Shown here one piece after another: positions 7,005 through 28,331 of a stretch of 64,000 bases of DNA (the first letter of the stretch is position 1; every line of letters begins with the position of its first letter). Source of the DNA: Microbacterium terregens (lineage in GTDB: Bacteria > Pseudomonadota > Alphaproteobacteria > Sphingomonadales > Sphingomonadaceae); the NCBI RefSeq assembly GCF_027922045.1, contig NZ_BSEX01000015.1:1-64000 (forward strand), written 5' to 3'. The notes beneath the pieces were generated by a model that was not told the DNA's origin, searched no databases, and saw only the letters and a program-made list of their open reading frames with translations. Position numbers and translations under genes: made by a program.

Positions 7005-7033
7005 GCAATCGTAGAGACGGTCTCTACGATTGC
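7005..7033. promoter_or_regulatory. Perfect 29-bp dyad between divergent O and P operons
   Basis: The two 14-bp arms GCAATCGTAGAGAC and GTCTCTACGATTGC flank a single central G. The dyad lies 46 bp before the P start and 100 bp before the O start. There is no T-run on either side, so an operator for both late promoters is more likely than a terminator. It does not show the TGT-N12-ACA pattern of P2 Ogr sites, so the binding protein is unknown. Confidence 0.75.
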
Positions 7034-7078
7034 CGCCGCTCCGTTTGGCCGTGGAGGCGTGGCTAGGCTCGCGCCGCC

Positions 7079-9951: not shown

Positions 9952-10946
9952 CCCGTTACCCCGCCGGGGCTTCGGCCTGGCGGGGGTTTCTCCGGATGGC
10001 AGTCCGGCAAACCGACGAGACCCAGCTCGCCACGACCAGCGGCCATCGGCCGTCCCGCACCCGGCATGTCGCCGGGCGCGAACCCCATAAGGCGAGCTTT
10101 TCACCCGTGTATCCAACAAACGTACGTCCCACTGCGCCTGCAGCCGGCTATATCGGCGGCAAGCGCAATCTTGCGTCCAGGCTGACCGCGATCATCGCCC
10201 AGGTCGAGCATGACGGCTATGCCGAGCCCTTCGTCGGCATGGGCGGGATCTTCCTGCGCCGGCGGTCCCGGCCGAAGGCGGAAATCATCAACGACGTGTC
10301 GGGCGACGTCGCCACGTTCTTCCGCGTGCTGCAGCGGCATTACCCCTACTTCATCGACATGCTGCGATTCCGCGTGGCGAGCCGCAACGAGTTCGAGCGG
10401 CTGAAGGCGCAGGCGCCCGAGACACTGACCGACCTGGAGCGGGCGGCCCGGTTCCTCTACCTCCAGCGCCTGGCGTTCGGGGGTAAGGTGAACGGCCGAC
10501 ACTTCGGCGTCGACCGCACCCAGGGCGCGCGGTTCAATGTCACCAAGCTGGAGCCGATGCTGGCGGATATTCACGAGCGCCTGGCCGGCGTCGTGATCGA
10601 GCAGCTGGGCTATGCCGAGTTCATCCGCCGCTATGACCGCGCTGGCATGCTGTTCTACCTCGATCCGCCATATTGGGGATGCGAGGACGACTATGGCCAG
10701 GACGTGTTCGGCCGGGCCGACTTCGCGACCCTGGCGGACCAGCTCGCCGGCATCGCGGGCAAGTTCCTGCTTTCGATCAACGACACGCCGGGCGCGCGCG
10801 AAGTGTTCGGGCGGTTCCACCAGGTGCAGCTGCCGGTGACCTATACGGTCGGGGCAGCGGCCGCGAAGCAGGTCAGCGAGCTGGTAGTGGCGAACTTCGA
10901 CGCCACCGCGCTATGCTCGCCGCGTGAAGCGGCCAACAACAACTGA
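9948..10946 (+). CDS. DNA adenine methylase (Dam/M.MboIA class)
   Basis: This is an N6-adenine methyltransferase of the Dam class. Motif I-type YIGGKRNLA and PFVGMGG (about residues 68-100) bind S-adenosylmethionine, and DPPYW (239-243) is the catalytic motif. In phages such enzymes protect against host restriction or regulate expression. The GTG at 9948 overlaps the Q stop by 4 bp, but the first 50-odd residues are unlike the family and lie across a terminator-like hairpin. An ATG at 9996 or a GTG at 10107 (11 codons before motif I) may be the true start. The target sequence cannot be read from the protein. Confidence 0.85.
   Translation: MTRYPAGASAWRGFLRMAVRQTDETQLATTSGHRPSRTRHVAGREPHKASFSPVYPTNVRPTAPAAGYIGGKRNLASRLTAIIAQVEHDGYAEPFVGMGGIFLRRRSRPKAEIINDVSGDVATFFRVLQRHYPYFIDMLRFRVASRNEFERLKAQAPETLTDLERAARFLYLQRLAFGGKVNGRHFGVDRTQGARFNVTKLEPMLADIHERLAGVVIEQLGYAEFIRRYDRAGMLFYLDPPYWGCEDDYGQDVFGRADFATLADQLAGIAGKFLLSINDTPGAREVFGRFHQVQLPVTYTVGAAAAKQVSELVVANFDATALCSPREAANNN
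9959..9990 (+). terminator. Rho-independent-type terminator after portal gene
   Basis: The arms CCCCGCC (9959-9965) and GGCGGGG (9979-9985) enclose a further paired GC core capped by a TTCG loop and are followed by GTTTCT. It lies directly after the portal stop and probably ends the packaging operon. Confidence 0.7.
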
Positions 10947-11016
10947 TCTGGAAGCGGCGGTGATCGGGATGCTGATTGCCGCCGCCGCGATTGCCGCGAT
11001 TTTGTGCTATATTTGA
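10924..11016 (+). CDS. Tiny single-helix membrane peptide overlapping methylase end
   Basis: A GTG at 10924 opens a 30-codon frame that overlaps the last 23 bp of the methylase gene in another frame. The product starts MKRPTTTDLEAAV and then is one continuous hydrophobic helix of about 18 residues (IGMLIAAAAIAAILCYI). The layout fits a small inner-membrane peptide. No clear ribosome site is seen, so translation would depend on coupling with the methylase gene. Confidence 0.4.
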   Translation: MKRPTTTDLEAAVIGMLIAAAAIAAILCYI

Positions 11017-11066
11017 TTTCGGTGTTGCACCGCCAGCAGCTGGGGTCAAAAACGCAGCACCAACGG

Positions 11067-11237
11067 CTAGAGTGTCGTTCCTGGGATAAGCCGGAGGCGT
11101 AGGCGGCGCATCATTGTCGCGACCTCCTCAGGATCTCGTTGTAGCTGCTCAGCAATCGCTTTCACCGCAGCCCCTTGTTGAAGTTGATCCCGAAGCTGGG
11201 TGATGTGGGTCTGTGTCCACCGATGATGCGAGTTCAT
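11067..11237 (-). CDS. Small helix-turn-helix-like protein (SANT/GcrA-like look)
   Basis: This 56-residue protein starts MNSHHRWTQTHITQLRDQLQ and continues with GAAVKAIAEQLQRDPEEVAT and a final RRLRLRL. The pattern of an early Trp, then L-R-x-L-x-x-G, I-A-x-x-L-x-R and a V-x-x-x-x-R-R-L recognition helix is that of short Myb/SANT or GcrA-type DNA-binding modules common in alphaproteobacteria. The start codon overlaps an upstream small frame by 4 bp (ATGA at 11234-11237). It is the last gene in a run of leftward tiny genes. A DNA-binding role is inferred from pattern only. Confidence 0.6.
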   Translation of the reverse strand: MNSHHRWTQTHITQLRDQLQQGAAVKAIAEQLQRDPEEVATMMRRLRLRLIPGTTL

Positions 11238-11299
11238 AGATCGTCCTCAAAGCGATGATCGTCGAGCAGCACGCAGAAGCCTATGTGCTCGAGAGGCAT
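11234..11299 (-). CDS. Possible very short frame coupled to HTH gene
   Basis: The last 21 codons (MPLEHIGFCVLLDDHRFEDD plus Leu) have strong coding-like third-position GC and their stop overlaps the HTH gene start by 4 bp. The frame is open upstream to a TTG at 11423-11425, but that part looks non-coding. It may be a leader peptide, the end of a decayed gene, or chance. Confidence 0.3.
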   Translation of the reverse strand: MPLEHIGFCVLLDDHRFEDDL

Positions 11300-11448
11300 A
11301 CTACGGGCCGCCGGGCTCAACCTTAGATGTGGAAGCCTCGTAGAACGCTGGGAACTACGTAGGCCCGCGTGGAGAAGGTGCCGGCCATTCGGGCACCCGC
11401 TCCAGGCAGGCCACTTACACCTCAAGCCAGCTATTCAGGGATAGGGAC

Positions 11449-11664
11449 CTAGACCTTCGCCGATGTGAGACGCTTGGTTGCGGGCTGCTTCCCGTGGCCG
11501 GGCCGCATTGCTGCCCGTTCCTCTGCCTCGCCGATCCCACGGATCAGCTTCCGCCATATCGTGTGCGCCCGGCGGTGGAAGGCGCGGTCACGCTCACTAG
11601 TCGCCGCTTCTGCAGCGGCCAGACTTGCTTCCGCTTTGCTCGTATATTCTTCGAGTTTCGTCAT
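11449..11664 (-). CDS. Small helical protein of unknown function
   Basis: This 71-residue protein begins MTKLEEYTSKAEASLAAAEA and continues with SERDRAFHRRAHTIWRKLI. It is charged, probably one or two long helices, with a basic C-terminus. The start at 11664 has an AGGACAG ribosome site at proper spacing; the longer frame to 11727 lacks one. Its pattern (acidic-Ala helix, then ARG-rich RRAHTIWRK) resembles the neighbouring 11764-12021 product, so the two may be distant paralogs. I do not recognise a function. Confidence 0.6.
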   Translation of the reverse strand: MTKLEEYTSKAEASLAAAEAATSERDRAFHRRAHTIWRKLIRGIGEAEERAAMRPGHGKQPATKRLTSAKV

Positions 11665-11763
11665 CGACTGTCCTGCGCATGGCTTCCGGCCCAAGGCGCG
11701 TTCGATGCCCCAGGGCCGAGATAGCATAGATGATCGGGGATCGTGTCCGTCAGGCCGTAAGGC

Positions 11764-12021
11764 TCAGGCGAAGCCCCGATCCGGGTTTTCGCTCAGGCTG
11801 CGATCCTCCGCGTCCGGGAGGGCGGAGGGAAGTATAGGGCGAAGCGATGCTGCGCTCTTGAGCTTGCGGGCGTCGGCGCGCTCTGCTGCGGTGGCCTCTT
11901 TCGCCCATGCGGCGGCGGCTATGTTGGCGATCTGTCGGCTGTTCTCGAGGGGGGCGGCAGCCGCAATCGCCAATTGGCGCGCCTCCTGCGTGCGGCAGAA
12001 TGCGAGTGTAAGCGACATCAT
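11764..12021 (-). CDS. Small helical protein of unknown function
   Basis: This protein of 84 or 85 residues begins MMSLTLAFCRTQEARQLAIA and has an Ala-rich helical middle (AAAAWAKEATAAERADARKL). AAGGAA lies a few bases upstream. Two tandem ATGs (12021 and 12018) overlap the stop of the gene before it. Short Ala/Glu/Arg-rich proteins of this type are frequent in sphingomonad genomes, but I know no assigned role. Confidence 0.6.
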   Translation of the reverse strand: MMSLTLAFCRTQEARQLAIAAAAPLENSRQIANIAAAAWAKEATAAERADARKLKSAASLRPILPSALPDAEDRSLSENPDRGFA

Positions 12022-12161
12022 AGTTCCTTCGCCTGAGCGAGGCCACTGACCGCGAGAACGGATCGATCGCAACGCCACGTGCCGTACGCCGCATCAGAGC
12101 CAACTTCGCGTTTGAGGAGTGCGAAACCCCTTCGTGGAGGGGGCAGATCGAGCATGGTCAT
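12018..12161 (-). CDS. Tiny protein, first gene of small-gene run
   Basis: A 47-residue frame begins MTMLDLPPPRRGFALLKREV and includes AAYGTWRCDRSVLAVSGLAQ. A good ribosome site (GGAGC, 7 bases before the ATG at 12161) is present, and its TGA stop overlaps the tandem ATGs of the next gene, so the two are probably coupled. The Pro/Arg start and single Cys do not point to a known family. Confidence 0.5.
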   Translation of the reverse strand: MTMLDLPPPRRGFALLKREVGSDAAYGTWRCDRSVLAVSGLAQAKEL

Positions 12162-12257
12162 TTGCAGCTCCGGCTAGAGCGGGAGCACAAACCATCTCTC
12201 AGTCGCATCCATGCTCGTTAAGGGCGGCGCGATGGATGTGAGATGGGGAGCCGGGTG

Positions 12258-12294
12258 CTCTGGCGCCAGAGGCGTCGCCGAATAAAGACGCCGA
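12258..12294 (-). terminator. Palindrome and hairpin between leftward genes
   Basis: A perfect 14-bp palindrome, CTCTGGCGCCAGAG (12258-12271), is directly followed by a GGCGTC/GACGCC hairpin with a 10-12 base AT-containing loop. Both lie downstream of the leftward 12329-13042 gene. They may end its transcript or serve as an operator for the small-gene run. Confidence 0.35.
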
Positions 12295-12328
12295 ACGGCG
12301 ATGCTGCAAGGCAGGTCGGAGCGCTCGA

Positions 12329-13042
12329 TCACTCAAGCCGCGTGGCGAGCCAAATAGTGTGCGGCTGCCCCTGATCGTTTCCGCCCGCTTCCACACGAGC
12401 GACCTCCACCTCGAAACCCGCCTTGGCAAGCCGGGCAGTGAAGTCGTCGTCGGGATAGGCTGACCAGACTGCCAGGACGCCGTCGGGGCGCAGGGCGCTT
12501 CGGGCCGCACGCAATCCCCAGTTGCAGTAGAGTCGCTCGTTTGCGAGATTGACCAGACCCTCAGGTCCGTTGTCGACGTCCAGCAGGATCGCGTCAAAGC
12601 CGCCCGGCTGTTCCACGATCATGTCGTGAACGTCCTTAATCTCCAGCGTCACTCTGGGATCCCGCAGCGAGGTCCCTAAGATGTGCGCCAGGGGACCGGC
12701 GGCCCATTCGGCAACTTTCGGCACGAGCTCGGCCACGACGATCGTTGCGGCTGGCGGGAGCGCGGTCCTTGCCGCACCAAGGGTAAACCCCATCCCCAAG
12801 CCGCCGATCAAGACCCGCTGTGCGCGCGTGCCAAGGCGATCGAAGACCAGGGTCGCGAGTGCTTCCTCCGATTGGAAGGCCCAACTACCCATCAACTGCT
12901 CATCGCCGTAGAGGATTTCATAATCTACGCCGTGGCGGACCAGGTGCAGATGTCCGCCGCCGGGGATGTCGGCGACATCCACCAGAACGCCCCAACCGCT
13001 GCGGTCCACCGCGGGAACTTCAGCCGTGTTCAAGCCGGCCAA
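12329..13042 (-). CDS. Spermidine-synthase-like protein (methyltransferase fold)
   Basis: This 237-residue protein has the polyamine aminopropyltransferase/methyltransferase fold. The nucleotide-binding loop is RVLIGGLGMGFTLGAART (about residues 75-92), the acidic end of strand 2 is VVAELVPKVAEW, and the active-site-like motif is DAILLDVDNGPEG. The family includes true spermidine synthases and many SAM-dependent enzymes of unknown substrate. The N-terminal domain is short, so spermidine synthesis is doubtful. The start at 13042 is a TTG; a GTG at codon 12 is an alternative. It lies in the accessory stretch between the prophage and the tRNA fragment. Confidence 0.75.
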   Translation of the reverse strand: MAGLNTAEVPAVDRSGWGVLVDVADIPGGGHLHLVRHGVDYEILYGDEQLMGSWAFQSEEALATLVFDRLGTRAQRVLIGGLGMGFTLGAARTALPPAATIVVAELVPKVAEWAAGPLAHILGTSLRDPRVTLEIKDVHDMIVEQPGGFDAILLDVDNGPEGLVNLANERLYCNWGLRAARSALRPDGVLAVWSAYPDDDFTARLAKAGFEVEVARVEAGGNDQGQPHTIWLATRLE

Positions 13043-13254
13043 GTTCAGATGTCATTCCAGGAGGGGAGTGCGGTCGCGAGAAGGCGATCCGCGTTCGAGA
13101 CTTGTCCGCTACCGTCAGGGCCGTTTGCGAGCGCTGTGGCTTTGGCGGCCATCTCCTGAGTGGTTTGGCGGCGGTGATGAAGTAAAGCCATGCTTGGCTC
13201 CTGGAGAGCGGAGGAAAGGTGGCGGAAGCCGCACAGGCTTCCGCCAGTTGCCGA

Positions 13255-13461
13255 TCAGGCAGCTTGCAGGTTTACGGCGGAAGTTTTCCCGCGCCGATCT
13301 GTTTCCATCTCGTACGAGAGGCGCTGATCCTTGTTTAGCGTCGACATGCCGGCGCGCTCGACGGCAGAGATGTGGACGAAGGCGTCCCCGCCTCCGCTTT
13401 CGGGCGTGATGAAGCCATAGCCCTTGTCGGCATTGAAGAATTTCACGGTTCCGGTGATCAT
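13255..13461 (-). CDS. Cold-shock domain protein (CspA family)
   Basis: This 68-residue protein is a single cold-shock domain. It begins MITGTVKFFNADKGYGFITP, where KGYGFI is RNP1, and DAFVHIS is RNP2. It binds single-stranded RNA/DNA and works as an RNA chaperone. The start at 13461 follows GGATATC; the upstream 300 bp, which should hold promoter and a structured leader as in other csp genes, has no other clear gene. Such genes occur both in chromosomes and on mobile DNA. Confidence 0.93.
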   Translation of the reverse strand: MITGTVKFFNADKGYGFITPESGGGDAFVHISAVERAGMSTLNKDQRLSYEMETDRRGKTSAVNLQAA

Positions 13462-13782
13462 AGGGATATCCTTTGTCCCATGTATAACGGGCGTGCACCA
13501 ACAACGGGGCATCCCGGCGTCTTGCGGCCAGAAAGGGACAAGGGGAGGCCGGAGCGGCCCGATATCCGTCAAATGCGACGTCAGCACTCCGTATATGGGG
13601 ACTTCTTCGGGAGAAAGAAAGCGGCATCGGAGGCGACGTGTCCGGGAGTCCCCTTTCACCTCACCCGGATGTAGCCGCACAGCGGCCGGGCTTGTTCGCA
13701 GAGGCGTGGTCCCCACCTATGGTGCGATGCAGCAAGCTGGTTCAATCCTCCTCGCGCAGACCAGTCCATCAAGGATGCTGAG
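13462..13782. other. Intergenic region between divergent csp and esterase genes
   Basis: No supported gene is seen here. It should contain the csp promoter and leader (leftward) and the esterase promoter (rightward). AAGGATG lies just before the esterase ATG. I could not pick out convincing -35/-10 pairs. Confidence 0.5.
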
Positions 13783-14940
13783 ATGCGGAACCTCTCGAAC
13801 ACCATCAAACGGCTTGCCACGATGCGGAACGCGACGGACTTGCATTGGAACGCCAGCGGCCCGGATCGGCTGACAGATCTGTCGGATTTCGGCTCCAATC
13901 CCGGGAATCTTCGGGCTAGGTTCTACGTTCCGGAGGCGCTTGCGGATAACGCGCCGCTGGTGGTGGTCCTTCACGGCTGCACGCAGAGTGCCGGCGGATA
14001 TGATCTGGGCTCGGGATGGTCGCAGATGGCGGACCGCTTCGGCTTCGCGCTTCTGTTCCCCGAGCAGCAGCGCGCCAACAATCCAAACCTTTGCTTCAAC
14101 TGGTTCTCGCCGGAAGACATTGCGCGCGGGTCGGGCGAGGCGCTCTCGATCCGGCAGATGGTCGACACCGTGGTGCACAAGCATCTGATCGACACATCGC
14201 GGATTTTCGTGACCGGACTTTCCGCGGGCGCCGCGATGACGTCGGTGATGCTTGCCACCTATCCGGAGGTTTTCGCGGGTGGAGCGATCATCGCTGGTCT
14301 CCCTTTTGGCTGCGCCCAAACAATGCCTCAAGCCTTTGATCGCATGCGCGGCCACCAGATTCCGGACCGTGCAGAATTGGCGGCGCTCGTCCGGGGTGCC
14401 TCGAACCATTCCGGCAAGTGGCCCACCGTTTCCGTGTGGCATGGCACCGCCGACAGCACGGTCAACGCGGCCAATGCGGCGGCGGTTACCGAGCAATGGT
14501 GTGCGCTCCACGGAGTGGGGCCCACACCGAGCCGGATCGAGTCCGCCAAGGGATATCCGCGGCGGGTCTGGTGCGACGCGGAAGGGCGCGAGGTGATCGA
14601 GGAGTACAGCATCACCGGCATGGGGCACGGGACCCCGCTTGAGGTGGGGGGCGACGAGGGTTGTGGGAAGGAAGGGCCCTTCATGCTCGAGGCAAGCATC
14701 TCTTCGACCCGCCATCTCTGCCGCTTCTGGGGATTGGACTGCGCGGCTGACAGCGAGGCGCCCCTGGATACGTCAGCCCGCTTCGCTTACCGCGAGCTTG
14801 CTCCGGCAGCTAACCGGGTTGGGGCAGAGGTGGGAACTCGCGCCGTTGCCGAGCCGGTGGGCGTCAACCCCGCGCCCACCATCGAGGGTGCCGGCAAGGT
14901 GATCGAAGATGCGCTTCGAAGGGCCGGGCTGATGCGTTGA
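13783..14940 (+). CDS. PHB-depolymerase-family esterase
   Basis: This 385-residue protein is of the esterase PHB depolymerase (type catalytic domain 'LpqC/PhaZ-like') family. It has the oxyanion motif HGCTQ (64-68), the nucleophile elbow GLSAG (145-149, Ser147), an Asp in WHGTADSTVN and a His in GMGHGTPL, completing an alpha/beta-hydrolase triad. No clear signal peptide is seen, which is common in this family's annotated members. Members cleave short-chain polyester or phenolic esters such as feruloyl groups, so the substrate is open. It lies alone, with a good AAGGATG ribosome site. Confidence 0.87.
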   Translation: MRNLSNTIKRLATMRNATDLHWNASGPDRLTDLSDFGSNPGNLRARFYVPEALADNAPLVVVLHGCTQSAGGYDLGSGWSQMADRFGFALLFPEQQRANNPNLCFNWFSPEDIARGSGEALSIRQMVDTVVHKHLIDTSRIFVTGLSAGAAMTSVMLATYPEVFAGGAIIAGLPFGCAQTMPQAFDRMRGHQIPDRAELAALVRGASNHSGKWPTVSVWHGTADSTVNAANAAAVTEQWCALHGVGPTPSRIESAKGYPRRVWCDAEGREVIEEYSITGMGHGTPLEVGGDEGCGKEGPFMLEASISSTRHLCRFWGLDCAADSEAPLDTSARFAYRELAPAANRVGAEVGTRAVAEPVGVNPAPTIEGAGKVIEDALRRAGLMR

Positions 14941-15392
14941 ATGAGTGTCCGCGTCTCCGCGGGGTGGCCTGCGTCCTTCGCCGCGGAGCAATGCCTGGCG
15001 CACTGGCCCGACCTGATCCTGCGACCCCAATTTACGCGCAGAGACCCCCGCCTCGCCCGCGCTCTTTTTGTGGCGCTTTCGACGCAAACATGACGCCTCC
15101 GCGGCTCTCAGGAGAAAGCGCCCTGTGCAGGGGGCAATCTCGCGCCCCGAGCGCGACGCAGATCGACGCAGCCAGCCTGTCCGCGAGGGGGACAGGGCGG
15201 ATCTGTTGGCACGATCCCCGCTCGTCCCCGTCGCCGAGCCTACGTGGCGGCGCAAGCCGCCGCGACCGACAGTCGCAGCTAGGCGATCGGTTGCGGGTGA
15301 CATCGTCATTTGAAGGGTAGGGGACAATCAAATCAGCGTATCGCGTAGCGATTCCTCTTCAGATCTTATTCTATCCGCGGGTAGTCGGCAGA
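14941..15392. other. 450-bp region without supported gene
   Basis: Frames here are open only through high GC and have no ribosome sites or family features. The right end (15320-15390) is more AT-rich. I see nothing definite in it; it separates the esterase from the replication-like gene, both ending toward it. Confidence 0.4.
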
Positions 15393-16142
15393 CTATGAAC
15401 TCGCGCTCGACATAGCTGCATCGCGGCGGTCGATCGCGCGGCCCATCCGCTCAAGGATTGCGGCGCACTTGGGATCGCTGGGAACGGCCGGCCGAGGGGG
15501 CTTCGGAGCGCTCCGGAGCTTGCGGGTCGCGATCGTCAGTAGGTTCTGGAACGTCGACTTGGCCTCGGTCACCAGCTGCTCCGCCCATGCGAAGAAATAG
15601 GCGTTGGACGTCTGCTCCAGCTGCGGTCCGGCATGTCCTTCGGCACCCTCCTTCGTCTTGGTGCGGCGAACCCAGCAGATGAAGCCGAAGCGGCGTAGGC
15701 GATGCAGCGACGCCTTCACGAAACCGAGGCTCTTCCCAGTCTCGGCCGCGATCGTCGCGTATGTCGGGTATAGCTGCCCCGTCATGTGGTTGTAGCGGTC
15801 GAGCATGTACCAGAGGACTGCGCGGTCATCACCGTGCAGCCGATGGTCGACGTGCGGGACGTCGTTGCGAAGGCCAGCCCGGCGATCAGAGCGCGCCTTG
15901 CTCAGAGCAATGGAGTGCGCGCGATACAGCCGGTCGAAGGCGCCCAGCGCCGCGCCCTTGATCGCAGACCAGTGCTTTCGGCTTCCGCCGCCGTGCCGGT
16001 GAATGCGCCAGGGCTGAGCCTTCGGGGAGGCTTCGTGGTAGCTTTGACGCCGAACCGGGTCGGTCGCCTTGCCTTCCTTACGGGCGCCCGGAGTGCGGCT
16101 AAGAACGCCGCTAGCAATGCTCGCGAACAGGTTGGCGGTCAC
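15393..16142 (-). CDS. Plasmid RepA-like / HTH replication protein
   Basis: This 249-residue protein has a central winged-helix region: LWYMLDRYNHMTGQLYPTYA, then TIAAETGKSLGFVKASLHRL and RRFGFICWVRR. This is the HTH_36-type domain of 'replication protein A' proteins found on sphingomonad plasmids and integrated elements. The N-terminus is basic and probably disordered. The GTG at 16142 is a weak start with no good ribosome site, so a start further in is possible. It lies directly beside the tRNA-Gln fragment and two short dyads, as expected for a replication or control gene at the end of an integrated element. Function in replication is inferred. Confidence 0.65.
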   Translation of the reverse strand: MTANLFASIASGVLSRTPGARKEGKATDPVRRQSYHEASPKAQPWRIHRHGGGSRKHWSAIKGAALGAFDRLYRAHSIALSKARSDRRAGLRNDVPHVDHRLHGDDRAVLWYMLDRYNHMTGQLYPTYATIAAETGKSLGFVKASLHRLRRFGFICWVRRTKTKEGAEGHAGPQLEQTSNAYFFAWAEQLVTEAKSTFQNLLTIATRKLRSAPKPPRPAVPSDPKCAAILERMGRAIDRRDAAMSSASS

Positions 16143-16156
16143 AGTGCGACCGTCAA

Positions 16157-16213
16157 TTTGCGTTCCGCAAACGGATTGTAAGTGGTTGATTTTGCGAGAG
16201 CGGGTTTCACCCG
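16157..16213. promoter_or_regulatory. Two short dyads upstream of RepA-like gene
   Basis: TTTGCG-TTC-CGCAAA (16157-16171) and CGGGT-TTC-ACCCG (16201-16213) both have a central TTC. They lie 15-70 bp before the RepA-like start and 40-90 bp before the tRNA fragment. They may be operators for the gene or binding sites for replication or recombination proteins. Confidence 0.45.
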
Positions 16214-16249
16214 GTTCCGCAGAAGCTTCCCAGATTGGCTGGCTTCAAT

Positions 16250-16299
16250 CCGGCTTTTGGTACCGGCATTCGCAGGTTCGAATCCTGCCGCCCCAGCCA
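16250..16299 (+). other. 3' fragment of tRNA-Gln(UUG): probable attachment site (attR)
   Basis: The sequence from the anticodon loop (CTTTTGGTA, anticodon TTG) through the T-arm (GCAGG TTCGAAT CCTGC) to the acceptor strand CGCCCCA, discriminator G and CCA (16297-16299) matches the 3' half of bacterial tRNA-Gln. The 5' half, which should begin TGGGGCG, is missing: the 200 bases upstream do not contain it. Elements that integrate into tRNA 3' ends restore the tRNA at one end and leave such a fragment at the other. With this orientation the element lies to the left. The matching intact tRNA must be left of the window. Confidence 0.82.
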
Positions 16300-16778
16300 A
16301 CTCTTCACATTCACTTCTTTACCCCTCGTGCGTGCTCGCTCCGACGGCATTCCGCAGCTGCGGTTGCGGGCTTCGAGTTCGGCGACCGCAGAATCGTTCA
16401 GGGACGTGGTCATCGCTTGGTAGAGATCGAGCATCCAGGCACCGTGACGACGGTCGAACTAAGCATTGCGGCGATTTCTGACGGTGCTCTCGGCCGCCGG
16501 CGCCGGGGGTTCGCTTCGTTGGCAAGGGTGCGGGACAGCTTGCGGTCGCAGTTCGCCTTGCCGGCCGCGACCGTCTTCATCTTCGCGGGGCCGCGATCGT
16601 GCCAGTTGGCGGTGACGCCGGTCACCTCTTCCTGCTTCTGAGATTGATCGTCGTGTCCATCGCCGTTGCGGCGGTAGATGGGAAGGGTCGGCGGTTTGAA
16701 GGCGAATATGGTCACCCTTGTCGAGTGGCGCCAGCTTTGCCAGTCCGCCAGCGGGCGGCACACAGAAAGGGGCCTGCA
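16300..16778. other. Region right of the attachment site, no firm gene
   Basis: Two leftward frames (16410-16763 and 16207-16434) overlap around 16410-16434 and could be pieces of one small frameshifted gene, but neither has a family motif, and the second runs antisense through the tRNA fragment. I treat the region as unassigned, possibly scarred host DNA. Confidence 0.4.
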
Positions 16779-17054
16779 GTGTTTCTGACGATCCTGGTGG
16801 CGGGTCTGGCAGAGCCCAGCCTGGCCGATAGCGTCCGGTCCTGCTCAGCGGCGGTGCATAGTGCTCAGCTTGAGGATGCGATCTACGCTTGTTCGCGACA
16901 AGCAGAGGAGGACACTGCTTGCGGCGCCGTCCTCGGGTTGGGGAGAACCGCGCCATTTGCGCTTCCGATGCTGCCCCCGGACAAGAGAGCCGCTGCTCTC
17001 GCCTATTTCGACGCCAGAGTTGCCGCCTGCATCGAGCATGAGGAGGGCTTGTAG
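16779..17054 (+). CDS. Small Cys-containing, probably secreted protein
   Basis: This 91-residue protein starts at GTG 16779, 8 bases after AAAGGGG. A short hydrophobic start (FLTILVAGLAEPSLAD) looks like a minimal signal peptide. The rest contains four Cys (SVRSCSAAV, AIYACSRQA, DTACGAVLG and AACIEHEE) that could form two disulfides. I do not recognise the family. The longer open frame upstream to 16599 lacks a good start signal. Confidence 0.5.
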   Translation: MFLTILVAGLAEPSLADSVRSCSAAVHSAQLEDAIYACSRQAEEDTACGAVLGLGRTAPFALPMLPPDKRAAALAYFDARVAACIEHEEGL

Positions 17055-17215
17055 CAGCAGTGCTAGTGCACGCTGAGGCGACTAGGTTATGAAGCGATCA
17101 GCGCCCGCCTCTGGATCGAGTGCGAAACGTCCGACGCCTTGCCGCAGCCCGTTCGGCGGACGGCGCGGCAGCTCTTTTCGAAAGCGAGCGGCGAAGCTGG
17201 TGCGCTCCTTCTTGA

Positions 17216-17563
17216 TCATGGATGCGGGAACGGGATTCCGTGTCGGCGCGACAGCGCCTCCAGGATCGCATCTTTGCCTTGCACGAAGGCTTGTCCGTTA
17301 TGGCTCCCGGTTACCATTCGAGCTTCGGCATCATCGGCCAGCAGGAGGAGCGGGAGTGATTGGTTCTCGGCTCCGACCAACTCGATAACCTCCTGCCTCG
17401 GCCGGGCCCAGTCGACCCGAAGAACGTCGATACGCGTCGCCAGTGTAGGAAAGCTGACGAGGACGCCTTCCATCAAGGCGCAGTGCCAGCAGTAGAAGCG
17501 TGTGCCTGGCAAGGCCGGATCAACAAAGTCGGGCTTGATGATAATGAGTTTGTCTCGGTCCAT
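17216..17563 (-). CDS. DUF3088 family protein
   Basis: This 115-residue protein is of the DUF3088 family. It has the typical start with KPDFVDPALPG, then RFYCWHCALMEGVL, a C-x-x-C-like pair in a thioredoxin-like place, followed by RVDWARPRQEVIELVGAENQ and SLPLLLLADD and ends with a conserved HGIPFPHP. The biochemical role is unknown; the fold suggests a thiol-disulfide or glutathione-related function. AAAGG precedes the ATG. It is a stand-alone gene, opposite in strand to the glycan operon that follows. Confidence 0.88.
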   Translation of the reverse strand: MDRDKLIIIKPDFVDPALPGTRFYCWHCALMEGVLVSFPTLATRIDVLRVDWARPRQEVIELVGAENQSLPLLLLADDAEARMVTGSHNGQAFVQGKDAILEALSRRHGIPFPHP

Positions 17564-17762
17564 CGGGAGCGCCTTTCTTTGTGAGGCCCTCCTTTAGCGC
17601 AAGGAAATCGAACAGCCAGAGGTGCGCGCCTCCTCAACAGGCTCCTGCCTCTTGGCAGCGCAGCGTGCCTCCGCACCGCCTGCCTCTTCTTTGGTATCGC
17701 TAACAGCTTTCAGCCCGTTTGCCCGCGTTATTCGCCGTCCAACGCCCCATCACGCGATCCAA

Positions 17763-17791
17763 TTGACAATTTACTTTTTGTATCTTGTTAT
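17763..17791 (+). promoter_or_regulatory. Sigma70-type promoter of glycan operon
   Basis: TTGACA (17763-17768), a 17-bp AT-rich spacer and TGTTAT (17786-17791) form a strong promoter about 100 bp before the first TonB receptor gene. The surrounding 17564-17890 region holds no gene. The low GC of the stretch stands out against the surroundings. Confidence 0.7.
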
Positions 17792-17893
17792 CTTCCCCGG
17801 ATCTCAGGCGGAGAGGGGCTTCTTCCCCGCGGACGTCCGCAAAGAAAATAAAAGTAGCGAGAGGGCGGAGCCGCCTTCGAAATTAGGATGGGG

Positions 17894-20800
17894 ATGGAGA
17901 TGAACGCTTATAAGCTTTGTCGGGCGACTGCGGCCTCGCGTGCCGGATTGGTGCGCCATCTGCTGGTATCTGCGAGTGTGATCGTCGGCATGGGCGGTAT
18001 CGCGCATGCGCAGGAGGCCAGTTCGACCCCGCCGGCGGGACAGCCCGACCGCGACATCAGCGCCTTGCAGGACGAGACCCAGTCGGTAGCGCAGGACGAT
18101 GCGAGCGCCGGTGGCGAGATCCTGGTCACCGGCTACCGCCGTTCGATCGAGCAGAGCCTGACGCAGAAGCGCGAGGCGAATGCGTTCGTCGACGTGATCA
18201 CGGCCGAAGACGTCGGCAAGTTCCCCGACAAGAACGTCGCGGACTCGCTGCAGCGCGTGCCGGGCGTGATTATCGATCGCGACGGCGGCGAGGGCAGTCG
18301 CGTCAGCATCCGCGGCCTTAGTTCCGACCTGACCCTCACCGAGCTCAACGGCAACTTCATCGCGTCCGCGGACAGCGGCGATCCGTCGCGCTCCTTCAAC
18401 TACCTGCTGCTCCCCTCCTCGCTGATCGGCAGCGTCGAGGTGTTCAAGTCCCCCGAGGCCCGGTTGGACGAAGGCGGCGTCGGCGGCGTCATCATCAACC
18501 ACACGCGCGAGCCGTTTGACCTGGAGCCCTGGTCGGGCAGCTTCTCGGCCGAAGGCACCTATGCCGATGTCACGGAGAAGGTGGAGCCGAACCTGTCGGG
18601 ACTGGTGTCCTGGCACAACGAGGACAAGACCCTCGGCTTTCTCGTGGGCGCTACCTATCAGGTGCGGACCAACCGGACGCTGAGCTCCTCTGCCGACAGC
18701 TGGCAGTGGTGGACCGATGACAAGGCCAGCCAGCCTGCGACCGATGTGAACGGGAATGGCTTCGCCAACGACTCCGCCGTTTCCTATTGGAACAGCGGCG
18801 CGGACGCCGGAACCACGACGCGCGACGGTACCCACTACAGCGGGTATTGGGCGCCCCAGTCGGTCGGCACCAACATCTTTGATCAGGAGCGCAAGCGGCT
18901 CGGCATCCAGGCCACGGCACAGATGCGGCCGTTCGATAATCTGGAGATCACCGCCAACTACTTCCGGTTCCAGCTCAACGGCGATTACACCAGCAACACC
19001 ATCAAGATCCCCGAGTGGGGCTATGGCAACTTCTTCACCGGCGCCACCTTCGACAGGAGCGGGACGATCCTGACCGGTGCGAAGTTCGAGGTTCCGCCGG
19101 AAGGCACCGGCTGCCGCGTTCCCGGCAATCTCTGCACCATGGAGACGCCGGCGCCGCAGAACACCTATGTTCGTGAGAAGAGCGTCTCCAACACTTATGA
19201 TGCGCGCGGCACCTGGGAACTCGACCGGCTGAAAGTCGATTTCGTGGTCGGCAAGACCAAGGCGAAGGGCGGGCCGTCCTTTCAATTCTATGCACAAGCC
19301 AAGCCGCGCAACGGCACCGTCAACGGCAACGAGCTCAGCGCCTGGAATTTCACCGATCAGTCGATCGCGATGCAGTTCTCGCCCGATGTGCTCCAGAACA
19401 TGCTGAACGGGGTCGCGCAGATCGACCTCGGATCGACGGGGTCCGGCTTTACGAACAGCACGATTTCTCAGCGCTACGCCCAAGTCGACGTGACGCGGAA
19501 GTTCGATTCGCCGTTCCTGGATTCGCTCCAGGCCGGCGTGAAATGGCGCGACGGCCGTATCCATCGCGAGACCGGCCGTTTCGAATGGTATTCGGACGCC
19601 GCGAATACGCTGCGCTTCCAGGACACGCCGGGCGGTGCTGTGGCCCTGCCGGAGTTCTTCTATCCCAACTCGCTGGGGAATATCGCCGGGGGTTTCGAGT
19701 CCACCGCCTTCCCCGCCCTCAACATCCAACAGTACATCGGCTATCTGAACGAGACCTACAACGGTCCGGTCCGGGTTCCCGAACCGCAGAACCTCTACAA
19801 CATCGAGGAGAGGATCTGGGCGGGCTATGCCCAGCTGAACTTCAAGACCAGCAACGTGCGCGGCAACATCGGCGTACGTGTCGTGAATACGAAGCAGAGC
19901 GGCGTATCGACCGACCAGATCATCTACGAGAACGATTACTGCCAGAATGGCCCGGGCGGTGCGTTCGACCCGAACAAACCGAAGGGTGAGGATGGCAACT
20001 GCCTGGTGATCCCGGAGAAGGACCGGCAGGACCGCGTCTTCAGCCCGAACGCCGAGGGCAAGAGCTACACGGACGTCCTGCCCAGCTTTAACATCTCGTG
20101 GGACGTGACCCCGGATCTGCTGCTGCGTGCAGCGGCGTCGAAGGTAATTTCGCGGCCTGGCTACGGCGATCTGGCGGGATCGCGCTCCCTCACGTTCAAC
20201 GCGGATCCGTTCGTGTTCGATCGTGCGGAGTTCGGTGCCCGGCCGGGCTGGTTCGGCAACGGCGGCAATTTTGCGCTGAAGCCGTTCAGCGCGTGGCAGT
20301 ATGACGTGGGCGTGGAGTGGTATTTCCGGCCGGGTTCGGTGCTGGGCGCAACCCTGTTCCGCAAGGACGTTTCCGACTTCATCGTGCCGGTGGTGATCGA
20401 CCTCTCGCAGGAAGTCGCCGGCGAGACCGTGACGGTGCAGCAGTATTCCACCCAGGCGAATGGCACGAGTGCGGTGTCGCAGGGCGTGGAAGTCTATGCC
20501 CAGCACACGCTCGACTTCGGGCTCGGCGCGCAGGTGAACTTCACGTACAATGACACTTCACAGGCCGCGGTCTCGCTGAACGGCACGGAGGTGGGTGAAT
20601 CCCCCTTGGTCGGCAGCGCGAAGACACAGGTCAACGCCTCGATCTTCTATGAACGGGGACCGATCCTGCTGCGTGCTTCCTATAATCGCCGCGGTGAAGT
20701 GGTGCGCGGGCTGTCTTCTGGCCTGAACGTCTATGACGACCCGTACGAACAGGTCGATCTGAATGCCGCGTTCGAGGTCTTCCAGAACTTGCAGATCACG

Positions 20801-20926
20801 GCCTCGATCATCAACCTGACCAAGTCCGAACAACGGCAGCATCTGGGTAACGACACCAAGGACCGCTTCATCTCGAACGAATACGCGGGACGTCGCGCGT
20901 ACCTTGGGTTCGCGTACAAGTTCTAA
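17894..20926 (+). CDS. TonB-dependent receptor, carbohydrate type
   Basis: This outer-membrane transporter of about 1010 residues has a signal peptide (hydrophobic stretch ending AHAQEA), a plug domain starting GEILVTGYRRSIEQSL, with FVDVITAEDVGKFPDKNVAD, RVPGVIIDRDGGEGSRVSIR, and a long beta-barrel ending in the classic GFAYKF with terminal Phe. The plug resembles receptors of xanthomonads and sphingomonads that import oligosaccharides, energised by TonB-ExbBD. It heads an operon with GH43, GH92 and GH125 genes, so it likely imports mannose-containing glycans. Three ATGs at 17888, 17894 and 17900 compete; 17894 best fits the AGGA spacing. Confidence 0.9.
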   Translation: MEMNAYKLCRATAASRAGLVRHLLVSASVIVGMGGIAHAQEASSTPPAGQPDRDISALQDETQSVAQDDASAGGEILVTGYRRSIEQSLTQKREANAFVDVITAEDVGKFPDKNVADSLQRVPGVIIDRDGGEGSRVSIRGLSSDLTLTELNGNFIASADSGDPSRSFNYLLLPSSLIGSVEVFKSPEARLDEGGVGGVIINHTREPFDLEPWSGSFSAEGTYADVTEKVEPNLSGLVSWHNEDKTLGFLVGATYQVRTNRTLSSSADSWQWWTDDKASQPATDVNGNGFANDSAVSYWNSGADAGTTTRDGTHYSGYWAPQSVGTNIFDQERKRLGIQATAQMRPFDNLEITANYFRFQLNGDYTSNTIKIPEWGYGNFFTGATFDRSGTILTGAKFEVPPEGTGCRVPGNLCTMETPAPQNTYVREKSVSNTYDARGTWELDRLKVDFVVGKTKAKGGPSFQFYAQAKPRNGTVNGNELSAWNFTDQSIAMQFSPDVLQNMLNGVAQIDLGSTGSGFTNSTISQRYAQVDVTRKFDSPFLDSLQAGVKWRDGRIHRETGRFEWYSDAANTLRFQDTPGGAVALPEFFYPNSLGNIAGGFESTAFPALNIQQYIGYLNETYNGPVRVPEPQNLYNIEERIWAGYAQLNFKTSNVRGNIGVRVVNTKQSGVSTDQIIYENDYCQNGPGGAFDPNKPKGEDGNCLVIPEKDRQDRVFSPNAEGKSYTDVLPSFNISWDVTPDLLLRAAASKVISRPGYGDLAGSRSLTFNADPFVFDRAEFGARPGWFGNGGNFALKPFSAWQYDVGVEWYFRPGSVLGATLFRKDVSDFIVPVVIDLSQEVAGETVTVQQYSTQANGTSAVSQGVEVYAQHTLDFGLGAQVNFTYNDTSQAAVSLNGTEVGESPLVGSAKTQVNASIFYERGPILLRASYNRRGEVVRGLSSGLNVYDDPYEQVDLNAAFEVFQNLQITASIINLTKSEQRQHLGNDTKDRFISNEYAGRRAYLGFAYKF

Positions 20927-20937
20927 GATGCGGCTTT

Positions 20938-20973
20938 GCCAATGGGTGGTTCCGGACGGAGCCACCCATTGGC
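20938..20973 (+). promoter_or_regulatory. Intercistronic stem-loop after TonB receptor gene
   Basis: A perfect 12-bp stem GCCAATGGGTGG (20938-20949) / CCACCCATTGGC (20962-20973) with a 12-base loop lies 11 bp after the receptor stop. No T-run follows. It may protect the receptor mRNA from 3' decay or partly terminate, giving more receptor than enzyme. Confidence 0.6.
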
Positions 20974-21049
20974 TTCGGATGACACCATAGGGCCGAGGTC
21001 CCCTTCCGCCATGTGCAGGGACGCTTCAGCCGAGATGAAGGAGGATCGT

Positions 21050-22114
21050 TTGCGACGCATCGGCGCGAAATGGCTGCTGACGGGCGCGGCCTTGATGGCA
21101 GGCGGGGCCGCGGTGGCGAAAAACCCGATCGTGCCAGGCTGGTATGCCGATCCCGAGGCGCGGGTGTTCGGCAACCGCTACTGGCTTTACCCGACCTATT
21201 CCGACGATTGGGGCCAGCCGGACGTGTCGCCGAGCTTCACCCCGCATCAGAAGGAACTGCGCAAGACCAAGACGGTCCGGCCGTCGTACGTCCAGCAGAC
21301 GTTCTTCAACGCTTTTTCGTCACCCGATCTGGTCCACTGGACCAAGCACAGCCACGTGTTCGACGTCGCCAACGCCGCATGGGCCGGCTACGCGATCTGG
21401 GCGCCGTCCGTCATCGAGGCGAACGGGCGCTACTACATGTTCTTCAGCGCCAACGACATCCAGAGCGACGCGGAAGTCGGCGGCATCGGCCTTGCCGTCA
21501 GCGACAAGCCGGAAGGACCGTTCAAGGACGCGCTCGGCAAGCCGTTGATCGGCGCGTTCCACAACGGCGCGCAGCCCATCGATCCGTTCGCCTTCCGCGA
21601 CGACGATGAGCAGGTGTATCTGTTCTATGGCGGCTGGAAGCACTGCAACGTGGTGAAGCTCAGCCCCGACCTGAAGTCGCTCGTGGCCTTTGCCGACGGC
21701 TCCACCTACAAGGAGATCACGCCCCCCGGCTATGTCGAGGGGTCGTTCATGATCAAGCGCAACGGCGTCTACTATCTGATGTGGTCGGAAGGCGGCTGGA
21801 CCGGTCCCGACTACAGCGTTGCCTATGCGACCGGGCCTACTGCGACGGGGCCGTTCAAGCCGATGGGCAAGATCCTCGCGCAGGATTTCCGCATCGCACG
21901 TGGGGCAGGGCATCATTCGGTGGTGAACGTGCCCGGCACCGACGAGTGGTACATCGTCTATCATCGTCGTCCGCTCGGCGACGACAAGGGCGAGCATCGG
22001 CAGGTGGCCATCGAGCGGCTGGTGTTCGAGGCGGACGGCAGCATCCGCCCGGTGGTGATGACCAACGAGGGCGTCCAACCCCGGCCACTGACCGCGGCTG
22101 CGGCCAAGAACTGA
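21050..22114 (+). CDS. Secreted glycoside hydrolase family 43
   Basis: This 354-residue enzyme is a five-bladed propeller GH43. The signal peptide follows MRRIGAKWLLTGAALMAGGA. Catalytic candidates are the Asp in GWYADPEARVFG (base), the Asp in QPIDPFAFRDDD (pKa modulator) and the Glu in GYVEGSFMIKRNGVYYLMWS (acid). GH43 enzymes act on arabinose, xylose or galactose linkages; which one is not readable here. I place the start at a TTG (21050) because an ideal AAGGAGG (21038-21044) sits 5 bases before it; upstream ATGs have none. It is the second gene of the mannosidase operon, so it may remove side sugars from a mannan or N-glycan. Confidence 0.85.
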   Translation: MRRIGAKWLLTGAALMAGGAAVAKNPIVPGWYADPEARVFGNRYWLYPTYSDDWGQPDVSPSFTPHQKELRKTKTVRPSYVQQTFFNAFSSPDLVHWTKHSHVFDVANAAWAGYAIWAPSVIEANGRYYMFFSANDIQSDAEVGGIGLAVSDKPEGPFKDALGKPLIGAFHNGAQPIDPFAFRDDDEQVYLFYGGWKHCNVVKLSPDLKSLVAFADGSTYKEITPPGYVEGSFMIKRNGVYYLMWSEGGWTGPDYSVAYATGPTATGPFKPMGKILAQDFRIARGAGHHSVVNVPGTDEWYIVYHRRPLGDDKGEHRQVAIERLVFEADGSIRPVVMTNEGVQPRPLTAAAAKN

Positions 22115-22172
22115 CATCAAGAACTCAGGCCGGCGATCGAACGCCGGCTATGCGACATCCAGGGGAGAGACC

Positions 22173-24536
22173 ATGACCAACACCATCGCCAAAGCGCTGA
22201 GGGGCGCCTCCGCGGCGCTGCTCGCGACGACCGCCCTGGTTCCCGGAGCGATGCCCGGGCCGATGGCGGCCGTGGCGCAGGACCGCGCGCCGGCGACCGA
22301 GGCGCTGGTCGACCTGGTCAATCCGCTGATGGGCAGCGATTCCAGCTATGAACTGTCCTATGGCAACACCTATCCGGCGGTGGCCGTGCCGTGGGGCATG
22401 AACTTCTGGACGCCCGTCACGGGCAAGATGGGGAGCGGTTGGGGCTACACCTACGCCGCGCACAAGATCAACGGCATCAAGCAGACGCACCAGCCCAGCC
22501 CCTGGATGAACGACTATGCCGCCTTCGCGCTGTTCGCGGAGACGGGGCCGCTGAAGGTCAAGGAAGAGGAGCGCGCCTCCTGGTTCAGCCACAAGGCGGA
22601 GGACAGCCGGCCGTATCGCTACAAGGTCTATCTGGCCGACTATGACGTGACGGCGGAGCTGACGCCGACCGAGCGCGCGGCGCAATTCCGCTTCACCTTC
22701 CCCAAGGCCGACGACGCCCACATCATCCTCGACGCCTACAACGGCGGGTCGATGGTCCAGATCGATCCGGTGAAGCGCCGGATCACGGGCTATGTCCGCA
22801 ACAACCACGGCGGCGTGCCGGACAACTTCCACAACTACTTCGTGGCCGAATTCGACCATGACTTCACCGTCACCCGCACCTGGGACGACAATGGACAGGT
22901 GACCGCCGAGCGTTCGCGCGAGGGCGATCACGTCGGCGCGGTCGTGAGCTTCAAGACGCAGGCGGGCGAGCAGGTCGGCGTGAAGGTCGCGTCTTCGTTC
23001 ATCAGCCCGGAACAGGCGGTGCGGAACCTAGAGCGCGAGATCGGCCGCGACAGCTATGACCAGACCGAGGCCAAGGCCAGGCAGGTCTGGGAAAAGGAAT
23101 TGCGCCGCGTCCAGGTGAGCGATCCGAACATCGACAATCGCCGCACCTTCTATTCGGCGCTTTGGCGGATGCTGCAGTTCCCGCGCATGTTCCACGAGAC
23201 GGATGCCGCCGACAAGACCGTCCACTACAGCCCGTATGACGGCAAGGTGCACGATGGTGTGCTCTACACCGACAACGGCTTCTGGGACACCTGGCGCGCG
23301 GTCTTCCCCTGGTTCGCGCTGATGTATCCGGAGCGCGATGGCGAGATCATGCAAGGGCTCGTCAACACGTACAAGGAGTCTGGCTGGCTGCCGGAGTGGG
23401 CGAGCCCGGGGCACCGGAACGTGATGATCGGGTCGAACTCGGCGAACCTGATCGCCGACGCCTATCTGAACGGCGTGCGCGGCTTCGACGTGGAGACGCT
23501 GTACGAGGCGATGGTCAAGAACGCGACCACGTCCGAAGGACGGCCGCGGGACAAGCGCGGGAATGTCGTGAGCGCCGTCGGCCGCGAGGGTGTCGAATAC
23601 TACAACCGCCTCGGCTATGTGCCGTACGACGTGGGCATCAACGAAAATGCTGCCCGGACGCTCGAATATGCGACCGCCGACTTCTCGCTGTCGCGACTGG
23701 CGCAGGCGCTCGGCAAGACCGAGGATGCCCGGAGGTACGCGCAACAGGCGCAGAACTATCGCAAGCTGTTCGACGCGCAGAGCGGATGGATGCGCGGCCG
23801 CAACCAGGACGGCAGCTGGTCCACGCCGTTCAACCCGTACAAGTGGGGCGACGCCTTCACCGAAGGGAATTCGGTGCACTACAGCTGGTCGGTCATGCAG
23901 GACGTGCAGGGGCTGGTCGACTTGATGGGCGGCGACCAGAAGTTCGTCAACCGGCTCGACTCTGTTTTCATGACGCCGCCGGTCTTCGACGACAGCTATT
24001 ACGGCCAGGTGATCCACGAGATCCGCGAAATGCAGATCGTCAACATGGGCCAATATGCCCATGGCAATCAGCCGATCCAGCACATGCCCTATCTCTATGA
24101 CTGGGCAGGTGCGCCGTGGAAGACGCAGTACCACGTCCGCGACGTGCTCAAGAAGCTCTACTCCTCTGCGCCGGACGGCTATCCGGGGGACGAGGACAAT
24201 GGCCAGACTTCGGCCTGGTACGTCTTCTCGGCGCTCGGCTTCTATCCGGTCACGCCCGCAGTGGGCGAATATGCGATCGGCAGCCCGCTGTTCCGTACGG
24301 TCCGGCTGACGATGCCGAACGGCAAGGTGCTGACGATCGAGGCCGTGAACAACAGTGCGGAGAACGTCTACATCCAGTCCGCGACCTTCAACGGCAAGCC
24401 GCACGACAAGGCTTGGCTGTCGCGCGAGGCGCTGCAGCAGGGCGGCACCCTGCGCTTCGTGATGGGGGCCAAGCCGAACAAGGCTTGGGCGAGCGGCAAG
24501 GCAGCTGCTCCTTTCTCCATGAGCGCGCCGAAATAA
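22173..24536 (+). CDS. GH92 exo-alpha-mannosidase, secreted
   Basis: This 787-residue protein has a signal peptide ending near VAQDR, the N-terminal beta-sandwich (start LVDLVNPLMGSDSSYELSYG) and the alpha/alpha barrel. The family signature is clear: DEDNGQTSAWYVFSALGFYP followed by YAIGSPLF. GH92 enzymes are calcium-dependent inverting exo-alpha-mannosidases acting on alpha-1,2, 1,3 or 1,4 linkages. The gene is 5 bp from the GH125 gene, which gives tight operon coupling. The linkage specificity cannot be read reliably here. Confidence 0.93.
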   Translation: MTNTIAKALRGASAALLATTALVPGAMPGPMAAVAQDRAPATEALVDLVNPLMGSDSSYELSYGNTYPAVAVPWGMNFWTPVTGKMGSGWGYTYAAHKINGIKQTHQPSPWMNDYAAFALFAETGPLKVKEEERASWFSHKAEDSRPYRYKVYLADYDVTAELTPTERAAQFRFTFPKADDAHIILDAYNGGSMVQIDPVKRRITGYVRNNHGGVPDNFHNYFVAEFDHDFTVTRTWDDNGQVTAERSREGDHVGAVVSFKTQAGEQVGVKVASSFISPEQAVRNLEREIGRDSYDQTEAKARQVWEKELRRVQVSDPNIDNRRTFYSALWRMLQFPRMFHETDAADKTVHYSPYDGKVHDGVLYTDNGFWDTWRAVFPWFALMYPERDGEIMQGLVNTYKESGWLPEWASPGHRNVMIGSNSANLIADAYLNGVRGFDVETLYEAMVKNATTSEGRPRDKRGNVVSAVGREGVEYYNRLGYVPYDVGINENAARTLEYATADFSLSRLAQALGKTEDARRYAQQAQNYRKLFDAQSGWMRGRNQDGSWSTPFNPYKWGDAFTEGNSVHYSWSVMQDVQGLVDLMGGDQKFVNRLDSVFMTPPVFDDSYYGQVIHEIREMQIVNMGQYAHGNQPIQHMPYLYDWAGAPWKTQYHVRDVLKKLYSSAPDGYPGDEDNGQTSAWYVFSALGFYPVTPAVGEYAIGSPLFRTVRLTMPNGKVLTIEAVNNSAENVYIQSATFNGKPHDKAWLSREALQQGGTLRFVMGAKPNKAWASGKAAAPFSMSAPK

Positions 24537-24541
24537 GCAGG

Positions 24542-28330: not shown

Positions 28331-28331
28331 A

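Follow-up and report, generated by a model that had tools for sequence, protein, structure and literature searches.

In the window, the 64,000-nucleotide stretch of DNA analysed here, a P2-like prophage ends at a 45-bp fragment of tRNA-Gln(UUG), and the DNA directly beyond the fragment appears to be what is left of an older prophage whose integrase was of the same kind. We consider it highly probable (about 0.93) that the P2-like prophage, with its attR at 16255-16299, was integrated at tRNA-Gln(UUG) by a tyrosine integrase and now lies between the tRNA gene and the older relic of the same family. Two integrations at one tRNA gene are the most likely origin of this prophage/relic junction. The earlier note on this DNA had interpreted the fragment as marking the right end of an integrated element; for the left side, the prophage end, that interpretation stood, while for the right side it was incomplete, the relic of an older prophage not having been anticipated.

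The tRNA-Gln fragment and the att core

The tRNA-derived stretch corresponds to the 3' part of tRNA-Gln(UUG), from the anticodon loop to the CCA end, and its 45 bases (16255-16299) are 100% identical in the tRNA-Gln(UUG) genes of several Sphingomonas genomes, including Sphingomonas sp. PL-96. Comparison of the intact tRNA-Gln of Sphingomonas desiccabilis with the window returned a match to these same 45 bp (95.6%, E 2e-16), and the next best match elsewhere in the window was 12 bases long. The 5' half of the tRNA is absent ahead of the stretch, as seen both in the letters and in the tRNA comparison within the window. ARAGORN and Rfam (gathering threshold) made no call for 16255-16299, as expected for half a tRNA; the sole tRNA that they called in the window is a tRNA-Glu at 63380-63454. 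The observation that 16250-16299 is a tRNA-Gln(UUG) 3' fragment without its 5' half was confirmed, with 16255-16299 as the part derived from the tRNA.

The five bases ahead of this part (16250-16254, CCGGC) match the PL-96 tRNA-Gln at four of five positions. The flank left of the core, CAATCCGGC in the window, resembles CAATGCGGC at the attR of S. desiccabilis, and since 16250-16254 lie on the side of this resemblance, we read them as phage arm, outside the tRNA-derived stretch. The tRNA comparisons, together with an S. desiccabilis alignment that ends at 16301, define 16255-16299 on the forward strand as the att core, which is the attR of the left prophage and its boundary to the relic.

Relatives with the same layout

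The TonB receptor encoded at 17888-20926 was searched against the named genome contigs, and the best 80 of 94 matches were kept, representing 75 loci. The top match among these was Sphingomonas desiccabilis CP1D, with 92% protein identity. Its locus aligns with window 7308-16301 at 93% DNA identity and with 17757-30885 at 89%, and the alignment breaks directly after the tRNA fragment. In S. desiccabilis, an intact tRNA-Gln(ttg) lies 40,142 bp left of the fragment in the same orientation, directly adjoined by a gene on the opposite strand for a 368-aa tyrosine integrase.

The order of intact tRNA-Gln, integrase, terminase, HTH_36 gene and tRNA fragment was found in S. desiccabilis and in a second genome, G165, where the layout from tRNA-Gln to fragment spans 38.9 kb. 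Both copies of the tRNA 3' repeat are present in these two genomes, and the right copy in the window. The integrase gene stands beside the att in both, and at the record end in a virus record of 41,933 bp (G321), which has the HTH_36 gene at its start. The shared order in S. desiccabilis and G165 bears out the proposal that the fragment is the integration scar of a tyrosine-recombinase element on the left. The predicted position of the integrase at the far left end holds in the relatives, and would put the integrase of the window prophage beyond the left edge. Among 18 virus records of P2-like phages, 10 gave an integrase match (E 0.001 or better). The identity reached 94% or more in four cases, one of which (G320) is the S. 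desiccabilis prophage itself.

Gene content and extent of the prophage

Pfam and PHROGs matches and collinearity with the S. desiccabilis prophage identified a P2-like late-gene block at 246-9951, comprising genes for tail completion, tail terminator, endolysin, gpL, small terminase, major capsid, gpO scaffold/protease, large terminase and portal. The Pfam matches were to Phage_cap_P2 (E 2e-114), Phage_GPO (4e-76), Phage_GPL (1e-43), Phage_term_smal (2e-42) and Terminase_5 (3e-18), and also to Phage_portal. With this P2-type head and packaging block present in the window prophage, a P4-like satellite was ruled out. The P2-type tail gene gpD was recognised by Pfam in the S. desiccabilis copy and occurs as a fragment in the relic described below; by collinearity, the equivalent part of the window's own prophage falls beyond the left edge.

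The last conserved gene ahead of the accessory genes encodes an adenine DNA methyltransferase (MethyltransfD12 by Pfam, and PHROGs; 9948-10946, forward strand), and several near-relative prophage records align with the window up to about 10986. A cargo slot follows at 10987-15018, inside the prophage and within the 93% S. desiccabilis alignment. It contains a small ORF and genes for a protein weakly resembling polyamine aminopropyltransferases, a cold-shock protein and a short-chain PHA/PHB depolymerase. The gene adjoining attR (15393-16142, reverse strand) encodes an HTH_36 protein, a possible replication initiator (Pfam HTH_36; weak match to phrog_270), and has the same place in S. desiccabilis and G165, as well as at the end of the virus record G321. 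Judged from these comparisons, the interval between the methyltransferase gene and the attR-side HTH_36 gene appears to be a variable cargo slot. Other cargo seen in the same slot of P2-like records includes a type ISP restriction-modification gene (L079, 13917-21538) and an RTX-repeat protein (L081, 14010-16311).

With regard to a possible defence role of the cargo, PADLOC returned matches to single proteins: the adenine methyltransferase matched methyltransferase-type profiles and PD-Lambda-5_B, and two other proteins gave weaker matches (mad2, CSD_V). A plasmid search with 11000-17600 matched 659 records, and the 20 that were listed match the depolymerase or the aminopropyltransferase/cold-shock part. 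A separate origin of the 11-16 kb genes, from a satellite or a plasmid, was ruled out by their collinearity inside the S. desiccabilis prophage. Because the S. desiccabilis prophage alignment runs through to the fragment, the genes from 11 to 16.2 kb belong inside the prophage. The suggestion that the prophage and the accessory genes up to 16.2 kb may be one element was upheld by this collinearity (7308-16301, 93%), and the cargo genes are seen to travel with the phage.

One candidate virus record, L078 (IMGVR_UViG_2922465951_000002; 99% terminase match), proved to be the S. desiccabilis prophage at 100% identity and was not counted as an independent case. It stops at a point corresponding to window 11664, some 4.6 kb before attR, so that most of the cargo slot is missing from this IMG/VR record.

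Divergence of prophage and host genes

Divergence between the window and S. desiccabilis at four-fold sites was 7-16% in seven of 11 prophage genes and 23.5-40% in all five host genes; for the terminase it was 12.3% of 187 sites. Higher values were obtained for the other four prophage genes, namely endolysin (22%), scaffold (26%), small terminase (31%) and HTH_36 (46%), and the prophage is therefore a mosaic for which the data give no single age. The HTH_36 gene (15393-16142) is the most divergent of the prophage genes compared: its protein is 93% identical to that of S. desiccabilis, yet 46% of its four-fold sites differ. An att-side module with a different history is possible.

A single insertion in the common ancestor with S. 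desiccabilis, with the right flank later changed in one of the two, would account for the same prophage, tRNA fragment and orientation in both, for the similar right-hand host genes, and for the four prophage genes that are as diverged as host genes or close to it. We nevertheless judge it unlikely, since the 7-16% divergence of the other seven genes is mostly about half or less of the host values, and the flanks part right at the core end, the pattern expected of separate integrations. Short of proof, these data are better explained by related mosaic phages that integrated separately than by one inherited insertion.

A prophage relic to the right of the core

DNA comparison across the core revealed that 16251-16507 matches the tRNA-integrase junction of S. 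desiccabilis (blastn 76%, E 1e-50). By tblastn, integrase residues 321-346 and 306-320 were found right of the core in two frames (E 2e-7). The integrase remnant occupies 16363-16484 on the reverse strand, covers residues about 306-346 of 368 and changes frame at about 16440 (tblastn and blastn). Closer to the core, at +50 as in the S. desiccabilis attL, lies a decayed P'-arm repeat with one mismatch, ATTCCGCA (16349-16356, forward strand). A piece of the P2 gpD (baseplate hub) gene, identified by DNA alignment at 16481-16735 on the reverse strand, follows the integrase remnant, to which it was apparently joined by deletion. It aligns at 79% over 262 bp with L161 15684-15945, which is 9 kb inside the S. 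desiccabilis prophage and falls in the gpD gene (Phage_GPD, E 7e-16).

We read 16349-16735 as the deletion relic of an earlier P2-like prophage, so that this stretch would be the remains of a second, older prophage of the same integrase family and not plain chromosome. The single ORF over the relic (16410-16763) gave no Pfam or PHROGs match, and the assignment rests on the DNA and tblastn comparisons. With a relic of the same integrase family on the right, the junction is one of prophage and relic, not of prophage and host. The alternative of a plain attR, with the prophage on the left and undisturbed host chromosome on the right, would agree with the host-type TonB receptor gene that follows from 17888 and with the lack of an integrase remnant right of the fragment in S. 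desiccabilis, but it is already contradicted by the same-family integrase and gpD remnants within 16363-16735, and we regard it as very improbable.

Beyond the relic, 16736-17053, including a small ORF, is common to the window and PL-96 (16485-17053 is 82% identical to L213 3325-3898). The small open frame, at 16761-17051 in the window and L213 3579-3899, is kept beside the relic in both strains; by eye it may encode a signal peptide, and the window ORF has no family match. The next interval, 17054-17757, holds a DUF3088 gene and had no match in the other compared loci.

A second element of the same site specificity is thus present directly across the core, as a relic only. No far att of the relic element was found, the window having only one tRNA-Gln-like stretch; for this reason, and because the PL-96 relic alignment ends at 17053, the junction was not classed as a complete tandem array.

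The tRNA-Gln site in Sphingomonas sp. PL-96

In Sphingomonas sp. PL-96, an intact tRNA-Gln is directly followed by a longer version of the relic, without the left prophage. In this version the integrase remnant is an open stretch (residues about 266-350), and the homologue of window 16485-17053 comes next, at 82% identity. The 53 kb from before the tRNA to the TonB gene contain no blastn match (E 1e-5) to window 1-16249, and PL-96 therefore represents an empty site for the left prophage. The comparison with related strains that had been suggested as a check on the empty site was in this way successful, with an intact tRNA-Gln and no prophage, at a site that itself holds the old relic. A more distant P2-type terminase (52%) is encoded on another PL-96 contig, so the strain is empty at the tRNA-Gln site but not free of P2-like phage.

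At four-fold sites, the relic ORF differs from PL-96 at 7 of 28 positions (25%), versus 32-50% in five host genes, which, for this small sample of 28 sites, is compatible with inheritance of the relic from the common ancestor of the window strain and PL-96. The tRNA-Gln and the TonB receptor locus of PL-96 (L009, L213-L215) are 47 kb apart on the same contig and strand, versus about 1 kb between the fragment and the TonB gene in S. desiccabilis. The latter has a different flank right of the fragment, in which no integrase remnant was found, and this flank (L001 8976-9875) had no match in the other compared loci. One tRNA site is thereby seen in three states: tRNA with the relic in PL-96, relic with a prophage in front in the window, and prophage without the relic in S. 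desiccabilis.

Integrase clade and choice of tRNA

A search of 295 genomes of the genus for the integrase (E 1e-30 or better) gave matches in 28 genomes, at 29 loci. At six loci the integrase is at least 67% identical along almost its full length, and a remnant was found in PL-96. At six of these seven clade loci (six integrases and the PL-96 remnant), tRNA-Gln(ttg) was called beside the integrase, and at the seventh, in G112, a tRNA-Gln 3' fragment lies beside it. The other 22 loci comprise 13 with 38-43% identity, of which 11 are by tRNA-Met(cat) and one by tRNA-Lys, with none called at one, and nine with partial matches (32-48%), whose fetched flanks held tRNA-Pro and tRNA-Met (one locus), tRNA-Pro (two), tRNA-Gly (two), tRNA-Met (one) or no tRNA (three).

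A terminase match was obtained in four of the seven genomes with the integrase clade or its remnant: S. desiccabilis (99%), G165 (64%), G075 (63%) and PL-96 (52%). The G075 terminase lies on a contig other than that of the clade integrase, beside an integrase of the tRNA-Met type. The genomes G112, G066 and G238, the last with its clade integrase (64-67%) beside tRNA-Gln, gave no terminase match, and the clade therefore also drives elements that are not P2-like.

Two such elements were delimited. In S. endophytica, an 11.1 kb element lies between an intact tRNA-Gln and a tRNA-Gln fragment (L216 1791-12998); its integrase has 67-69% identity, with one TGA inside the matched stretch, and the genome has no terminase match. 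In G112, a 58.3 kb stretch lies between an intact tRNA-Gln and the fragment (C6:491774-550192; L220, L261, L263), with the integrase gene on the fragment side and not the tRNA side. The DNA right of the fragment aligns from base 1 with the DNA right of an intact tRNA-Gln in another genome, both for S. endophytica (G006, 88%, 365 bp) and for G112 (G026, 90%, 238 bp). These alignments give two occupied/empty pairs for other elements at tRNA-Gln, and since the flanks align from the first base in both, the CCA end of the fragment is the boundary between element and host in these elements.

Putative integrase arm repeats

Two forward-strand copies of GTTCCGCA stand 93 and 41 bases left of the core (16162-16169 and 16214-16221), and their position and recurrence mark them as P-arm repeats and putative integrase arm sites. 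The pair is at -93/-41 in the window and at -94/-42 in the attR P arm of S. desiccabilis and S. endophytica; G112 has GTTCCGCA at -94 and a one-mismatch copy at -42, and the P-arm pair was not found in G165. On the P' arm, GTTCCGCA occurs twice, 12 bases apart, at +50/+62 in S. desiccabilis, +27/+39 in S. endophytica and +26/+38 in G112, while GTTCTGCA occurs at +58/+70 in G165 and at +58 in S. paucimobilis. The relic P' repeat at +50 is ATTCCGCA in the window and GTTCTGCA in PL-96. One GTTCTGCA is also found at +48 right of the fragment in G165 (L264). It could have belonged to the arm of another relic, but the DNA right of that fragment gave no significant integrase match.

In G006, G026, G008 and G017, which lack a clade element, the first 200 bases to the right of the tRNA contain no copy of the repeat, even with one mismatch allowed. 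The motif GTTCYGCA is present in the downstream flank (+1 to +100) of 6 of 48 intact tRNA-Gln loci, a set that is not a random sample, as it consists of the best-matching tRNA-Gln loci and three picked because they carry the integrase (50 in all, minus two with an incomplete tRNA or one that could not be aligned gap-free). All six loci carry a clade element or relic; five show the integrase or its remnant by tblastn, and in G112, the remaining one, the integrase sits at the opposite end of the element. GTTCYGCA was not found in the flank of G238, where a clade integrase lies beside tRNA-Gln. Within the window, GTTCCGCA occurs 15 times on both strands, and the only same-strand pairs within 150 bases are 16162/16214 and 13784/13823. 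We infer that the GTTCCGCA repeats are binding (arm) sites of the integrase.

The reading in which the fragment is only the left end (attL side) of a right-hand element, with the left prophage ending elsewhere, would explain why the C-terminal part of an integrase lies to the right of the core, as it would at an attL, but the related prophage in S. desiccabilis and G165 ends at the core with its integrase at the other end, and the arm repeats at 16162 and 16214 lie on the left, leaving this the least likely of the alternatives.

Proposed course of integration

Integration at the 3' ends of tRNA genes, with the tRNA restored and a copy of its 3' part left at the far end, is well established. 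The arrangement favoured here, a prophage inserted between tRNA-Gln and an older relic, would have arisen in two steps. First, tRNA-Gln would have been occupied by an older prophage that had an integrase of this kind, and deletions would then have left of it no more than an arm repeat, the integrase tail and a piece of gpD. Later a P2-like prophage, about 40 kb long if the length in S. desiccabilis applies, would have entered the 3' end of tRNA-Gln(UUG) through its own tyrosine integrase, inserting between tRNA-Gln and the relic. As the phage attP would carry a copy of the tRNA 3' part, the tRNA would be restored at the left junction and the 45-bp copy left at 16255-16299. The core identity starts at the anticodon loop, and strand exchange probably took place there or close by. 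The integrase would bind the GTTCCGCA arm repeats, of which one pair lies at 16162 and 16214 and a second pair would be expected at the left junction; the attL and integrase of the window strain would lie there. Entry between tRNA and relic would place the fragment between the new P arm and the decayed old P' arm.

Relation to known systems and biological meaning

In M. abscessus T36, prophages have been described that stand in tandem because one integrated at the attL or attR of another already in place (PMC9934374). The window resembles that case in having two elements joined at a common att core; the difference is that two prophages are described in tandem there, whereas the right one here is a relic of less than 1 kb. 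For S. suis, tandem accretion of integrative elements, partly at tRNA genes, has been described (PMC7168690). Successive site-specific integrations at one target are common to both, and the elements covered there are conjugative or mobilizable, whereas those here are prophages. The window prophage resembles P2-like prophages (Peduoviridae) in its P2-type capsid, scaffold, gpL, terminase and portal genes, and, in the S. desiccabilis copy, in gpD and the tyrosine integrase. The HTH_36 gene beside attR, the variable cargo slot and the sphingomonad host may set it apart from these phages. No published report of the tRNA-Gln site in Sphingomonas prophages was found in the titles and abstract beginnings of the open-licence papers searched.

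The mechanism of tandem accretion is already known, and the junction is a clear but ordinary case of it; what is new lies in the details, namely the relic, the repeats as putative arm sites of the integrase, and the choice of tRNA by the integrase clade. The clade, its choice of tRNA and the arm repeats are directly testable. The att fragment also locates the end of this prophage, a part that is missing from the truncated record of its close relative in the viral catalogue IMG/VR. A more speculative idea, to which we give little weight, is that the junction may function like an attP of hybrid make-up, composed of the P arm of a live prophage, the core and the decayed P' arm of the relic. If so, an old relic would shape the entry and exit of later elements; it might, for instance, weaken or re-route the excision of the new prophage, and the sphingomonad tRNA-Gln would be a site with a memory of earlier insertions.
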